From Bacteroidota bacterium (lineage in GTDB: Bacteria > Bacteroidota > Bacteroidia > 2-12-FULL-35-15): a DNA stretch of 64,000 nucleotides. The stretch is taken from assembly GCA_029237775.1 (NCBI GenBank), contig JAQZBR010000001.1, positions 496,001-560,000 of the forward strand. The letters run 5' to 3'. The notes beneath the pieces were generated by a model. The model saw only the letters and a program-made list of their open reading frames with translations, ran no database searches and was not told the origin of the DNA. The position numbers and the translations under genes are program-made. This document shows positions 24,467 to 30,084 of this stretch, one piece after another (position 1 is the stretch's first letter; each line of letters begins with the position of its first letter).

Positions 24467-25111
24467 TTATATTGTCGGTGGAATCTCAGAACTGCCGGCA
24501 GCAGTAGTTAACTCTTCTTTCTTGCTGAAAAAACGTTTCTGATAAATGATGATCAATGCAACACCCATGCTTATTGCAAAATCAGCGAAATTAAAAACAG
24601 GGCGGAAGAAAACGAACTCTTCAGAACCCCAAAACGGGAACCATGAAGGGAAGTGTCCCTGGATCATTGGGAAATAAAACATATCTACAACCTTACCATG
24701 TAAAAATGAAGAATAGCCACCTTCTTCAGGCATAAACTTCGCCACCTCATATCCACTGTCGCTGAAGATAATTCCGTAAAATGCACTGTCAATGATGTTA
24801 CCTACAGCACCGGCAAAGATCAAGGCTATACAACTGATGTAAAGGCTATCTTCTTTATCTTTTGTAAGCTTCCAGAGATAATACCCGATACCTGCCACAG
24901 CAATAATACGAAAGACACTCAGAAACAATTTTCCAAAATCCCCTCCGAACTCCATTCCGTAAGCCATTCCGTTATTCTCAGTAAAATGAATGATAGCCCA
25001 GTCACCGGCAAGATGATATTCATCACCTAAAAAGAAATGCGTTTTTACGTATATTTTTATGATCTGATCGATCAGAAGTACAAGAGTAACAATCAGTAAT
25101 GGCTTTTTCAC
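24467..25111 (-). CDS. lspA: Lipoprotein signal peptidase (signal peptidase II)
   Basis: A 214-residue, four-helix inner-membrane aspartyl protease that removes the signal peptide of prolipoproteins. Visible: DQIIKIYVKTHF, the FTENNGMAYGM motif, GNIIDSAFYG, and the two catalytic Asp in VVDMFYFP and FNFADFAIS. It carries the longer extracytoplasmic insertion usual in Bacteroidota. I start it at a GTG (25111-25109), giving KKPLLIVTLVLLIDQ as a normal N-terminus. The longer ATG-started frame to 25225 crosses a -7 promoter box and reads into a dispersed intergenic repeat, so that extension is very unlikely. It lies downstream of ileS and the DksA-like gene, the standard order in this phylum, but with a terminator and its own promoter in between. 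Confidence 0.92.
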   Translation of the reverse strand: MKKPLLIVTLVLLIDQIIKIYVKTHFFLGDEYHLAGDWAIIHFTENNGMAYGMEFGGDFGKLFLSVFRIIAVAGIGYYLWKLTKDKEDSLYISCIALIFAGAVGNIIDSAFYGIIFSDSGYEVAKFMPEEGGYSSFLHGKVVDMFYFPMIQGHFPSWFPFWGSEEFVFFRPVFNFADFAISMGVALIIIYQKRFFSKKEELTTAAGSSEIPPTI

Positions 25112-25130
25112 AAATGCGGTTTTAGAGATA

Positions 25131-25138
25131 CAAAAGTA
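25131..25138 (-). promoter_or_regulatory. -7 box of lspA
   Basis: On the minus strand TACTTTTG, matching TAnnTTTG, ends 19 bases before the GTG start of lspA. It lies inside the longer ATG-started frame and so argues for the shorter protein. Confidence 0.5.
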
Positions 25139-25195
25139 TGAAAATACCGTTAAAGGAGAAGGAAATTTTAACATGGGGAAATTGGAGGCTTTTGG

Positions 25196-25225
25196 TTTTA
25201 CCACTGAGGCACTGAGGGCACTCAT
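25196..25225. repeat. Copy of the 'ACCACxGAGGCACxGAGG' dispersed repeat
   Basis: Imperfect copy of a repeat also found at 49451-49566 and 63240-63425. Upstream of lspA it produces the false N-terminal extension on the minus strand. The rest of 25226-25500 holds no gene that I can support. Confidence 0.5.
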
Positions 25226-25503: not shown

Positions 25504-25530
25504 AAAAAAGGCCGCCATAAGGCAGCCTTT
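25504..25530 (-). terminator. Terminator of ileS / DksA-like operon
   Basis: Minus-strand stem AAGGCTGCC / GGCGGCCTT with a TTAT loop and a following T-run, about 20 bases after the stop of the DksA-like gene. Confidence 0.8.
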
Positions 25531-25550
25531 CTTTAATATCTAAATTGCAA

Positions 25551-26615
25551 TTAAGCGTTTTGCTCAAGCTTCGCTTCGATAGCCAGTGTTGCATGAGGCA
25601 CGCTTCTTAAACGCTCCTTGGAAATCAATTTTCCGGTAGCGCGACAAATACCGTATGTTTTATTCTCGATGCGGATCAAGGCATTCTGTAAGTTCTGAAT
25701 GAATTTTTCCTGACGGGAAGCAAGATGTGCAGTTTCCTCTTTTGATAATACATCTGATCCATCTTCCAATAACTTGAAGGTTGGAGAAGTATCATCAGTG
25801 CCGTGATCATCCTTGTGAGAAAGGGTGCTCTTCAATAATTCATAATCTTTCTGCGCTTCAGTAAGCTTCTTCAGGATCAACTCTTTGAATTCTTTTAATT
25901 CGCTGTCCGAGTAACGTGTACGTGTATCAGTATTGATATGTGGTTTCGGAGCAGGGCCTTGCGGCCTGCGGATCGAAGGTGTTTTATATTCAACAATCAT
26001 CGGAGCGTCATCTCTGTCTCTTCCTCTTCTTCCATCATCATCAAGATCCATGTCGCGATCTTTTTTCTTAGGTGCAGGAGTAGATTTTTGCGCAGCAGGC
26101 TTCTGAACAGCAACCGGTTTAGCAGGCTCAGCTTTTTTAACTTCTGCTTTCGGAGCAGGAGCGACAACTTTTGCCACAACCTTCGCCACAGTTTTGATCG
26201 CTTTCGCAACCGCTTTAACGATCGGTTTTACAGGAGCTTTTTTAGCAACAGGCTTTGTTACTTTTTTAGCGACTGCTTTTTTTACAGGCTTAACTGCTTT
26301 TTTCGGAGCTACTTTTTTGGCTACCGCTTTTTTAACAGGCTTTTTTGCTGCAACCTTTTTCACCGGCTTAGCCGCTTTCTTCACCACTTTTTTTGCAGCC
26401 ACTTTCTTAACAACTTTCTTTGCCACCGCTTTTTTAACTGGTTTTTTAGGAGCCGCTTTCTTTGCAGGTTTAGCTGCTTTTTTAGGAGCTGCTTTCTTCA
26501 CAGGTTTTGCTGCTTTCTTAGGTGCTGCTTTCTTAGCCGGCTTTTTAGCCGCAGCTTTTTTTGCAGGTTTTGCCGCCTTTTTTGCCGGTTTGCCCTTTTG
26601 CACTTTTTTAGCCAT
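25551..26615 (-). CDS. DksA/TraR-like protein with histone-H1-like tail
   Basis: A 354-residue protein in two parts. Residues 1 to about 165 are an H1-like tail of Lys, Ala, Pro and Val in repeated KPAKKAA, KKVVKK and PKKAAKP blocks, followed by a charged linker (DMDLDDDGRRGRDRDD). Residues about 235-354 form the DksA/TraR-like core: a coiled-coil segment (YSDSELKEFKELILKKL, KEETAHLASRQEKF) and the end of the zinc-finger region, YGICRATGKLISKERL and VPHATLAIEAK. Only one Cys (about 324) of the C4 finger remains. DksA-family proteins bind RNA polymerase through its secondary channel. The usual Bacteroidota version is near 120-130 residues and lacks the tail. The ATG lies one base after the ileS stop, so the genes are coupled. 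Confidence 0.88.
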   Translation of the reverse strand: MAKKVQKGKPAKKAAKPAKKAAAKKPAKKAAPKKAAKPVKKAAPKKAAKPAKKAAPKKPVKKAVAKKVVKKVAAKKVVKKAAKPVKKVAAKKPVKKAVAKKVAPKKAVKPVKKAVAKKVTKPVAKKAPVKPIVKAVAKAIKTVAKVVAKVVAPAPKAEVKKAEPAKPVAVQKPAAQKSTPAPKKKDRDMDLDDDGRRGRDRDDAPMIVEYKTPSIRRPQGPAPKPHINTDTRTRYSDSELKEFKELILKKLTEAQKDYELLKSTLSHKDDHGTDDTSPTFKLLEDGSDVLSKEETAHLASRQEKFIQNLQNALIRIENKTYGICRATGKLISKERLRSVPHATLAIEAKLEQNA

Positions 26616-26616
26616 G

Positions 26617-29600
26617 TTAATTGGTGTTTTTGAGTTTAGTTATCGTGATTAATGTTTTGGTATCCTCATCTAGTTCAACTTCAGAACCTTGTGTAGCTTC
26701 CACAGAATCAACAAGTTCGAGGGAGGATGCCAAAATTTCCGCGCAAATATAGTTCAAATTATTATTGACTGCGGCATTAATAGCAGAATTTCTCTGAATT
26801 TTGACATCGATCCGGTCTGTAACGTCCAGATTACTATCCTTTCGAAGGTTCTGGATCCTGTTAACCAGTTCCCTGGCCAATCCCTCTTCCTTTAGCTCGG
26901 CAGTGATAGTAATATCAAGAGCCACAGTCAGTTGCCCCGAGTTTGACACTTTCCATCCCGGGATATCCACAGGTATGATCTCTACATCTTCTGTATCAAG
27001 CACAATAGATTCTCCTTCAAAACTCATGATGTATGTCCCTGTTTTTTCAATGCCGGAAATGATATCCTGAGCATTTGCAACAGCAAAGCTCTGAACCGAC
27101 TTCATGTGCTTACCGCATTTTTTGCCAAGGGTTTTGAAATTCAGCTTCAGATTCTTCACGATCTGAGTCTGAGACTCATTCACAAGCTCAAGTGTTTTCA
27201 CATTTACCTCAGAAAGGATCAAGTCCTTCACCGCCTCGATCTTGGATCTGTAAGAATCATCCAAAACCGGGATTTGAATTTTGTTCAATGGCTGACGCAC
27301 ACGAATATTTTCCTTCTTACGGATGGAAAGGATCATTGAAGAGATCTTCTGTGCGAGCTCCATTCTTTCTTCCAAATCTTTATCAATCAGCCCTTCAGTT
27401 ACGACAGGAAAATCACTCAGGTGGACTGAGCTTGCATTGTGTCTGCCCGTTGCGTTATTAAGATCTGAATATAGTCTGTCCATAAAGAATGGAGCGATGG
27501 GAGCTGCAAGCTGTGAGATCACTTCAAGACAACGATACAAGGTTTGATATGCTGATAGCTTATTCTGAACATGCTCCACTTTCTCCGAAGGAGTCCTTAC
27601 GGACCAGAAACGCCTTCTGCACAAGCGAACATACCAGTTACTCAAATGCTCATCGACAAAAGTTTCAATGTAACGCCCCGCGCGGTGTGGCTCATAATCA
27701 TTAAAAGCTTCATCCACTCTTTTAATAAGTGTGTTCAACTCAGAAATGATCCAGCGGTCTATTTCAGGACGATCCTTGACCGGCACCTCAGCTTCAGTAT
27801 AATTAAAACGATCAACATTAGCATAAAGCGCGAAGAATGAATACGTGTTATGAAGTGTACCGAAGAATTTACGCTGCACCTCAGCAATTCCGTCAATATC
27901 AAATTTCAGGTTATCCCATGGAGCAGCATTGGTGATCATGTACCAGCGTGTAGCATCCGGGCCGTATTGCTCAATAGTTTTGAAAGGGTCAACAGCATTG
28001 CCCAAACGCTTGCTCATTTTCTGTCCGTTCTTGTCAAGGACAAGTCCGTTCGAAACAACATTTTTAAATGCTACCGAATCAAAACACATTGTTGCAATAG
28101 CATGAAGTGTAAAAAACCAACCCCTTGTCTGGTCTACACCTTCCGCAATAAAATCGGCTGGGAAATATTTTTTTTCATCGATCAGCTCTTTATTCTCAAA
28201 AGGATAATGCAGCTGTGCATAAGGCATTGCACCCGAATCAAACCAAACATCGATGAGGTCAGGTTCGCGGAAAAGCTTTTTGCCATTACGTTCCAGAACA
28301 ATATTATCCGCGTACGGCTTGTGAAGATCGAATGTATCGTAATTCTCTTTGCTATTGTCACCGGGTTTGAAATCATGCAAAGGGTTTGATTTCATTACAC
28401 TTTTCAATACAGCATTTTCTATCTCTGATTTCAATTGTTCAGCTGAACCGATACAGATCTGCTCCGTACGGTCTTCGCTTGTCCAGATAGGAATCGGAAT
28501 ACCCCAGAAACGGGAACGTGATAAATTCCAGTCGTTAAGATTTTCCAACCAGTTACCAAAACGGCCGGTACCGGTCGATTCCGGCTTCCAGTTTATTGCT
28601 TTATTGAGTTCGATCAGACGATCTTTGTATGCTGTTGTTTTGATGAACCATGAATCAAGCGGATAATACAAAACCGGTTTATCTGTTCTCCAGCAATGCG
28701 GATAGCTGTGCTCGTATGTTTCTTTTTTGAAAAGATTTCCTTCTTCCTGCAGCTTTAGAACGATACGCTCGTCCACACTCAAATAAGCTTTTAGTTCCTT
28801 GATCTTCCCTGCTGCCTCAAGAATTTTTTTCTGATTCTTGAATTCAGCTTCTTTTTCTTCATCAGTTAAATAGGCCTCTTTCACATATTCTTCACCGAAA
28901 AGAAAAGTACCATCCTTTACTTCGGGAGCAAACTTTCCGCGCTTATCTACTAATGTTAAAGAACCGATCCCGTTTTGTTTTGCAACACGAAAATCGTCTG
29001 CACCAAAGCTCGGAGCAATGTGTACGATACCGGTTCCATCTTCCGTAGTAACGAAATCACCTGTGATCACCTTGAATGCGTCACCGTCATTCGGCTGAGC
29101 GAAACTTAGAAGCTGTTCATATTGAATTCCGGCAAGCTGTGAACCTTTCAGTGTTTTTACAATCTCAAAAGGGATCGCTTTATCACCTTCTTTGTATTCT
29201 TCGAGTTTAAGATCTTTGGCTTTGTCACTGAAATGTTTGCCGACAAGCTCTTTCGCGAGTACAACATTGATCGCCTTGTAAGTGAAAGGAGAGAAAGTCT
29301 TCACCAAAACGTAATCAATATTTTTGCCTACAGCAAGTGCAGTGTTGGAAGGTAATGTCCATGGCGTAGTCGTCCAGGCAAGGAAATAAACATCACCTGT
29401 AACATCAGCAAAATGAAGAGAATCTTTTGCGTTGCTGACTTTGAACATCGCAACCGCAGTTCTGTCTTTCACATTTCTGTAGCAGCCAGGTTGATTCAAC
29501 TCATGTGTTGAAAGCCCTGTCCCTGCAGCCGGAGAGTATGGCTGAATGGTAAATCCGTTATAGATGGAACCTTTAGAATACAGATTATTCAGCAGCCACC

Positions 29601-30084
29601 ATACACTTTCAATGTATTTATTATCATAAGTGATATACGGATTTTCCATATCCACCCAGTAACCCATCTTTGCAGTTACATCAGCCCACACATCAGTGTA
29701 TTTCATTACATCCTTGCGGCACTCAATGTTATACTGCTCAACAGTGATCTTCTTACCGATATCTTCTTTTGTGATCCCTAAAGTTTTTTCAACGCTTAAT
29801 TCGATTGGTAATCCATGCGTATCCCATCCGGCTTTACGCTTCACCTGAAAACCTTTTTGCGTTTTATAACGACAAAATATATCCTTGATGGAACGGGCCA
29901 TCACGTGATGAATTCCGGGCAAACCGTTAGCGCTTGGTGGGCCTTCATAAAACACAAAAGGGGCTTTGCCTTCACGCGAAGTGATCGACTTTTCAAATGT
30001 GTTGTTCTTGTCCCAGGTCAGCTGGATATCTTTTGCAGTCTGAGAAAGGTCCAGGCCTTTGTATTCTTTATATTTTAAGCTCAT
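26617..30084 (-). CDS. ileS: Isoleucyl-tRNA synthetase
   Basis: An 1155-residue class I synthetase that charges tRNA-Ile. The class I HIGH-type signature appears as GLPGIHHVMARS near residue 55, and the KMSKS loop as GQKMSKRLGN. WTTTPWTLPSN marks the editing (CP1) domain, which hydrolyses mischarged valine. The C-terminal anticodon-binding part follows. I see no Cys-rich zinc finger at the very end, consistent with the eukaryote-like, longer IleRS type common in Bacteroidota. It is first in the operon ileS - DksA-like. A -7 box TATCTTTG lies 23 bases before the ATG. Confidence 0.95.
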   Translation of the reverse strand: MSLKYKEYKGLDLSQTAKDIQLTWDKNNTFEKSITSREGKAPFVFYEGPPSANGLPGIHHVMARSIKDIFCRYKTQKGFQVKRKAGWDTHGLPIELSVEKTLGITKEDIGKKITVEQYNIECRKDVMKYTDVWADVTAKMGYWVDMENPYITYDNKYIESVWWLLNNLYSKGSIYNGFTIQPYSPAAGTGLSTHELNQPGCYRNVKDRTAVAMFKVSNAKDSLHFADVTGDVYFLAWTTTPWTLPSNTALAVGKNIDYVLVKTFSPFTYKAINVVLAKELVGKHFSDKAKDLKLEEYKEGDKAIPFEIVKTLKGSQLAGIQYEQLLSFAQPNDGDAFKVITGDFVTTEDGTGIVHIAPSFGADDFRVAKQNGIGSLTLVDKRGKFAPEVKDGTFLFGEEYVKEAYLTDEEKEAEFKNQKKILEAAGKIKELKAYLSVDERIVLKLQEEGNLFKKETYEHSYPHCWRTDKPVLYYPLDSWFIKTTAYKDRLIELNKAINWKPESTGTGRFGNWLENLNDWNLSRSRFWGIPIPIWTSEDRTEQICIGSAEQLKSEIENAVLKSVMKSNPLHDFKPGDNSKENYDTFDLHKPYADNIVLERNGKKLFREPDLIDVWFDSGAMPYAQLHYPFENKELIDEKKYFPADFIAEGVDQTRGWFFTLHAIATMCFDSVAFKNVVSNGLVLDKNGQKMSKRLGNAVDPFKTIEQYGPDATRWYMITNAAPWDNLKFDIDGIAEVQRKFFGTLHNTYSFFALYANVDRFNYTEAEVPVKDRPEIDRWIISELNTLIKRVDEAFNDYEPHRAGRYIETFVDEHLSNWYVRLCRRRFWSVRTPSEKVEHVQNKLSAYQTLYRCLEVISQLAAPIAPFFMDRLYSDLNNATGRHNASSVHLSDFPVVTEGLIDKDLEERMELAQKISSMILSIRKKENIRVRQPLNKIQIPVLDDSYRSKIEAVKDLILSEVNVKTLELVNESQTQIVKNLKLNFKTLGKKCGKHMKSVQSFAVANAQDIISGIEKTGTYIMSFEGESIVLDTEDVEIIPVDIPGWKVSNSGQLTVALDITITAELKEEGLARELVNRIQNLRKDSNLDVTDRIDVKIQRNSAINAAVNNNLNYICAEILASSLELVDSVEATQGSEVELDEDTKTLITITKLKNTN

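Follow-up and report, generated by a model that had tools for sequence, protein, structure and literature searches.

The window, a stretch of 64,000 nucleotides from a Bacteroidota bacterium, contains directly behind ileS a gene for a DksA/TraR-type protein with a long, basic, histone-H1-like tail, which raises the question of what such a tail does on a putative polymerase factor. A preliminary description of this DNA had placed a gene coupled to ileS at this site, and the open reading frame of 354 codons, which starts 1 nt past the ileS stop, bears this out. In the encoded protein, a tail of 185 residues is joined by a linker of 45 residues to a DksA/TraR core of 124 residues. The KPAKKAA-type repeats mentioned in the preliminary description are present, while the length of about 165 residues given there has to be corrected to about 185. 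The features of the locus and the related genes in the same genome are listed in Table 1.

Table 1. Features of the tailed dksA-type locus (positions in the window) and of related genes elsewhere in the genome (positions in the named locus).
Feature	Position	Strand	Remarks
Gene for the 354-aa tailed DksA/TraR-type protein	25551..26615	-	354 codons
H1-like K/A/P/V-rich tail, residues 1-185	26061..26615	-	KPAKKAA, PKKAA and KKVVAKK units; net charge +67
Variable acidic/arginine linker, residues 186-204	26004..26060	-	DRDMDLDDDGRRGRDRDDA; genus conservation 0.60
Conserved linear motif, residues 205-230	25926..26003	-	PM[VI]VEYKTPSIRKPMGPAPKPHINTD; genus conservation 0.90
Predicted DksA-fold core, residues 231-354 (124 residues)	25554..25925	-	
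Predicted coiled-coil tip loop, residues 266-291	25743..25820	-	invariant D-T, E, G (DDTSPTFKLLEDG)
Sole core Cys, residue 324 (YGICRATGK)	25644..25646	-	first position of former C4 finger
ileS	26617..30084	-	directly upstream of dksA-type gene, 1 nt between genes
lspA	24467..25225	-	next gene downstream of dksA-type gene, 325 bp gap
Hairpin, 3' arm ending in U run	25504..25533	-	just past dksA-type stop; -22.5 kcal/mol, z -4.8
Topoisomerase I with C-terminal KKAAPKKAAKKA tail	L197 1570-3216 (own genome G000:C3)	-	KPAKKAA-type
START_2 (PF19569) protein	L198 1468-2676 (own genome G000:C11)	+	H1-like N-terminal tail
Second DksA-type paralog without tail, 131 aa	L001 1483-1878 (own genome G000:C11)	-	away from ileS

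The hairpin behind the dksA-type stop was absent from a simple pattern scan and was found by the scoring of folding energies. It is a likely intrinsic terminator, and the ileS-dksA transcript may thus end there, with lspA perhaps transcribed separately in this genome. Despite this terminator-like hairpin in the window, the gene order ileS-dksA-lspA is widely kept. Among the fetched loci with enough flanking sequence, and with distal paralogs removed, ileS was the immediate upstream neighbour in 153 of 180 loci, and lspA followed in 158 of 183. These counts were obtained with the IleRS and LspA of the window as queries, by which far relatives may be missed. For complete proteins, lspA was found downstream of 59 of the 71 distinct tailed members and 83 of the 93 distinct short members. 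At one locus of a genus member (L195, G028:C33:37500-44000) the ileS stop is missing at the junction near position 2775, and the IleRS frame continues into the tail and the DksA core as an open frame of 1498 codons, with GTG where the window has ATG; this is either a natural fusion or an assembly error.

The match of the protein to the Pfam family PF01258 is marginal, with a score of 25.6 bits for residues 169-354 at a cut-off of 24.9, 24.4 bits, or just under the cut-off, for the whole protein and 28.3 bits in the genome search. The NCBIfam matches of the core to yteA (E 5.6e-13) and dksA (TIGR02420, E 1.2e-11) are both well below their cut-offs, which for the dksA equivalog model means 45 bits against the 115.5 bits required. 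A phmmer search of PDB sequences matched the core to 6ptg, 4ijj and 1tjl. An AF2 model of the core was built from 52 sequences, with pLDDT values of 88-93 in the helices, a mean of 71 over all residues and 55-58 in the tip loop. In a fold search, this model was aligned over 116 residues to DksA2 (4ijj, Z 13.4, rmsd 3.6), DksA (1tjl, Z 12.9, rmsd 3.3) and RNAP-bound DksA (5vsw, Z 11.5, rmsd 3.7); the top six rows were all of the DksA type, and the best unrelated chain had a Z-score of 8.5. The tool cautions that Z-scores under about 13 can be common among helical proteins, and the weight therefore rests on the gap to the next rows and on the sequence matches. The model points to a DksA fold, with a two-helix coiled coil, whose tip is predicted at low confidence, and a finger-like region. 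This agrees with the DksA/TraR-like core of the preliminary description, and the coiled coil is present in the predicted structure. A Pfam scan of the same protein at E up to 10, with filters that drop most weak matches, yielded only zf-dskA_traR and a weak match to DUF5645 for residues 169-354, with no match to a CarD/CdnL domain or to the winged-helix globular domain of histone H1.

The tip of the coiled coil in classical DksA carries the motif DxxDxA. In the family studied here, the core residues D90, T91, E99, G101 and E108 (A1 numbering) are invariant in 52 of 52 rows. When the family is paired to 4ijj as by phmmer, other pairings being possible, column 100 holds D or E in all 52 rows, column 103 holds D or E in 34 of these, and at column 105 the residue is always L, M or T and never A. 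The identification of the invariant tip residues as stand-ins for DxxDxA thus depends on the alignment.

Only one of the four zinc-finger cysteines remains in the window protein, as stated in the preliminary description. A single core Cys was identified in 184 of 194 rows and two in the remaining 10, and an odd loss of zinc-finger cysteines at this locus was consequently rejected. These rows comprise 180 distinct proteins (195 loci and the window, minus two copies of the gene itself, with paralogs included). The C4 pattern C..C.{15,25}C..C was found in 0 of the 194 rows, and [FY]GxCxx[TS]G in 193. Four or five Cys are present in the core part of some deeper members that belong to other classes of the phylum (L293, L296, L297, L301). 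Two of these loci (L296 and L297, family f82 of another class) encode an extended Cys-rich finger, CxxC...CxxC followed by PLIPKERL, together with a lysine-rich tail. Of 396 genomes of the class, 387 contain a relative of the core, as do all 89 genomes of the phylum sample, and in the own genome PF01258 matched nothing but the tailed gene and a single short paralog, which argues that the tailed protein is the main DksA-type factor of the organism. The short paralog is about 75% identical to the core. Such short paralogs, with N-termini of 6-37 residues and 72-77% identity to the core, were recovered alongside the tailed gene in G000, G009 and G028, and also in G008 and G018.

The tail (residues 1-185) contains 69 K, 50 A, 30 V, 23 P and 2 E, with no D or R, and at 37% K, 27% A and 12% P it qualifies as a K/A/P-rich basic tail of the histone-H1 type. 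Repeats and gaps make its alignments imprecise, and its N-terminus, MAKKxQKGKP, is conserved. Across 29 rows of the genus, the commonest residue at a position has an average share of 0.90 in residues 1-12, 0.63-0.76 in residues 13-185, 0.60 in residues 186-204, 0.90 in residues 205-230 and 0.94-0.95 in the core. Ratios of nonsynonymous to synonymous change were estimated for those 8 of the 406 genus pairs whose synonymous distance in the core fell within a selected range; some of these pairs share a genome. The tail gave ratios of 0.08-0.29, the motif 0-0.20 and the core 0-0.12, and the variable linker reached 0.70 and 0.92 in two pairs. Such low ratios show purifying selection on the amino-acid composition of the tail, weaker than that on the core. 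Lysine is kept while its codons vary (AAA 51, AAG 18).

The preliminary description had given 120-130 residues as the usual size of the protein at this locus. Complete frames in the fetched loci cover 58 families of the class, of which 24 have a tail of at least 40 residues and 34 the short, tail-less form; most of these families are represented by a single genome, and two of them (f15 and f33) hold both states. The usual size is thus correct for the 34 families and incorrect for the 24, and the tail is neither an oddity of the locus nor present in nearly all members. The 34 sister families without a tail indicate that it is dispensable for the core role. Within the genus, the tail is present in all 29 genomes with a complete aligned frame, with a length of 195-264 residues. 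Three other genomes of the genus, G016, G017 and G021 (75-83% complete), gave no dksA-type hit, and in G008 (76% complete) and G018 (64% complete) the short paralog was found and no tailed gene. In total, 83 rows and 72 distinct proteins have complete tails of at least 40 residues, with a median length of 210 residues and a lysine content of 18-35%. In other classes, a lysine-rich tail was identified at 5 of 10 loci (L292, L296, L297, L298, L301), four of them beside ileS; these 10 loci were picked for long frames of 199-470 codons, and the proportion is not a rate. A feature unique to this genome was rejected on the basis of this distribution. A chance low-complexity reading frame was also rejected, given the presence of the tail in all genus rows, the restrained ratios of change and the lysine content across tails.

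Phylogenetic analysis of the core joined to the C-terminus of IleRS (168 rows, of which 73 are tailed and 34 lack the IleRS part) gave at least 12 changes in the state of the tail, as compared to a mean of about 55 after shuffling, which suggests that the tail is recurrent and clustered by lineage. Three of the 12 changes are forced by well-supported (starred) branches, and the tree cannot tell gain of the tail from loss. Two copies of the gene itself (L002, L083) were dropped from the tree, the genus alignment and the Cys count and kept in the family count as two rows of f1, which accordingly has 30 rows for 29 genomes. The distal paralogs (L001, L176-L182) were dropped from the tree, the genus alignment and gene-order count and the family count. 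Frames cut by contig ends or fused to ileS (L008, L089, L108, L195 and others) were dropped from the tree, the family count and the tail count, L173 was kept in the tree despite its frame, and identical rows were dropped from the tree.

Another explanation sees in the tail a low-complexity expansion that has no specific role and serves solubility or represents a tolerated product of slippage. The internal tandem repeats that are visible in the tail DNA would fit this, as would the range of complete tails, from 49 to 305 residues, and their absence in 34 families. We consider this explanation rather unlikely in light of the restraint on nonsynonymous change in the 8 pairs, the preservation of lysine across different codons and the recurrence of the tails, which in part co-occur with tails on the START_2 protein and TopA.

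Within the genus, the motif at residues 205-230, which lies between the tail and the core, is conserved almost as strongly as the core itself. Related forms ending in PKPxIxxD before RxRYSD were recognized by eye in several other tailed families. In the AF2 models the motif is extended and of low confidence, even with motif rows supplied, and folding of the motif onto the core was not seen in the second AF2 run, in which such rows were included. An extended, low-confidence segment is as expected for a short linear motif.

Most of the tails that were read are H1-like. In three rows of family f40 and two relatives (L125, L157, L175, L012, L017), an acidic block is followed by KRGRGRRKK, which by its sequence is AT-hook-like. 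This combination is confined to these five rows, and the window protein contains only RRGR. The net charge is only +10 to +27 for the KRGRGRRKK tails and -5 for that of L063, values that are a poor fit to simple DNA binding.

We also compared the tail to the other proteins of its own genome. A search with the tail at E up to 0.01 matched three places, which are the protein itself, the C-terminus of TopA and the N-terminal half of a START_2 protein. The tailed START_2 protein also contains an acidic stretch and a conserved motif of the PKILKTFVNPMTSLTVAP type. The START_2 domain was found in 35 of 36 genomes of the genus, with frames of at least 329 codons in 31 of these. At 24 of the 30 START_2 loci that were read, a lysine-rich tail of 204-273 residues begins with ATG; of the other six, two are cut by contig ends and four have a lysine-rich open frame without ATG. 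Across families, of which those outside the genus were judged by frame length only, a START_2 frame of more than 250 codons was found in 6 of 11 families with tailed DksA, as compared to 0 of 10 with tail-less DksA (Fisher p 0.012, uncorrected for kinship). For the C-terminus of TopA, the most Lys/Arg-rich stretch of 40 residues had a median of 14.5 such residues in 24 tailed families versus 12 in 29 tail-less families, with p 0.001, uncorrected for kinship, and again p 0.001 without the contig-cut frames of f14 and f57. Many families with tail-less DksA also have short lysine tails on TopA. The hypothesis that every nucleoid protein of the genome is tailed was rejected, the three HU-type matches having frames of only 77-100 codons. 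An equivalence of H1 and HMGA was reportedly the subject of work by Garcia-Heras in 2009. In the Bacteroidota, the H1-like tail might be a mobile module, added several times and in a coordinated fashion to a few proteins that act on the chromosome, namely the DksA-type factor, TopA and the START_2 protein, with H1-like and HMGA-like tails interchangeable on the same core; it would then create a common chromatin-like layer by which the control of polymerase, supercoiling and the state of the nucleoid are linked. We regard this wider scheme as doubtful. The tailed START_2 protein is an unstudied possible partner.

For the protein itself, our preferred explanation, to which we give a moderate probability, is that of a zinc-less DksA-type polymerase factor kept on the nucleoid by its H1-like tail. 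The core, having lost its zinc finger and being predicted to retain the DksA fold, would probably enter the secondary channel of RNA polymerase, to which DksA binds in its action with ppGpp, and the disordered cationic tail would bind DNA without sequence specificity. Held at the nucleoid in this way, the factor would be more concentrated around promoter-bound polymerase and would be released more slowly, and the conserved 26-residue motif beside the core would contact the polymerase or another partner. Binding of the core to RNA polymerase is suggested by the fold and by the known families, and binding of the tail to DNA by its composition, by the tailed TopA and by published tails. DNA binding in vitro is reported for KPAA-repeat peptides from AlgP (PMC9239181), lysine repeats are credited with stabilising TopA on DNA (PMC7398561), and the HMGA-like tail of CarD is reported to bind DNA and to be needed for full activity (PMC4374960). 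In the same report, the RNAP contact of CarD is apparently dispensable in vivo, and a model based on CarD may therefore not carry over to a DksA-type protein (PMC4374960). The tail probably lets the regulator hold on to DNA. Its tethering function and the role of the motif we only infer.

Lysine/alanine tails are unspecific binders of polyanions, and one alternative is that the tail mainly binds RNA (rRNA, mRNA or the ribosome) and links a polymerase factor to translation. Co-transcription with ileS would be consistent with such a role, and among complete proteins with enough flanking sequence ileS is located just upstream more often for distinct tailed members (69 of 72) than for distinct short ones (71 of 94), as counted with the IleRS of the window as query, by which distant relatives may escape, and this could point to translation instead of DNA. 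The link to ileS nevertheless holds for most short members too, a similar tail is found on TopA, and KPAA repeats are reported to bind DNA in other systems (PMC9239181), for which reasons an RNA-binding tail seems unlikely to us. The tail could also bind polyphosphate and couple DksA activity to a polyP stress signal, given that the KPAA protein AlgP is reported to sit on polyP granules (PMC9239181) and that lysine-rich sequences are reported to bind polyP (PMC12077175). AlgP binds DNA as well, however, and nothing that points to polyP was seen at the locus; we consider this role of the tail improbable. Retention on DNA remains our preferred explanation, and the variety that occurs naturally, in which orthologs are found with and without a tail, short paralogs share a cell with tailed proteins and one core carries two types of tail, makes it testable by simple swaps.

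Finally, we compared the protein to known systems. It shares with DksA from E. coli (1tjl) and DksA2 from P. aeruginosa (4ijj) the predicted fold, with a coiled coil and a former zinc-finger region, and DksA2 is likewise reported to contain no zinc (PMC9213440). It differs from both in having only one Cys, an N-terminal H1-like tail and motif, a score below the cut-off of the DksA equivalog model and the family-specific tip DDTSPTFKxLE(D/E)G. The KPAA-repeat proteins AlgP and PhaF from Pseudomonas also have a long KPAA-type tail, which is reported to bind DNA, and for PhaF the tail is proposed to attach the granules to the nucleoid (PMC9239181). Unlike in the window protein, their folded domain is another one, their tail is C-terminal and their cargo consists of polyP or PHA granules. 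Actinobacterial TopA likewise has H1-like lysine repeats on a protein that acts on DNA, which are held to stabilise it (PMC7398561), but it is an enzyme and not a polymerase factor; the own genome of the window protein also encodes a tailed TopA.

A similar design is that of CarD from Myxococcus and Anaeromyxobacter, in which an RNAP-binding domain is joined to a disordered K/A/P-rich tail. The tails of CarD are described as HMGA-like, with an acidic segment and AT-hooks, or as H1-like in A. dehalogenans (PMC9304148, PMC4374960), and these two types resemble those of the DksA-type proteins, the H1-like tail on the one hand and the acidic block with KRGRGRRKK in f40 on the other. CarD coexists with the tail-less CdnL, as the tailed DksA-type protein does with short copies, which are close in G000, G009 and G028 and distant in G012, G019 and G032. 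In contrast to CarD, the putative RNAP-binding domain is an unrelated one and the tail is at the opposite end. Among the best matches of the open-licence literature, with subscription papers mostly outside, no description of a DksA-type protein with an H1-like tail was found, and the arrangement looks undescribed, as the preliminary description had supposed, yet it is not unique, recurring in many families of this bacterial group. The joining of an RNAP-binding domain to an H1- or HMGA-like tail is already known from myxobacterial CarD (PMC4374960, PMC9304148). The window protein is neither CarD, having no CarD domain, nor classical DksA, having no C4 finger and a sub-equivalog score, and would work like both in parts. 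If the DksA-type factor is indeed held on DNA by its tail, binding to the nucleoid would be coupled to the control that the factor exerts on polymerase through the secondary channel, and the protein would represent a second case of the CarD design, with an unrelated polymerase-binding domain, and convergent evolution of H1/HMGA-tailed transcription factors in bacteria.
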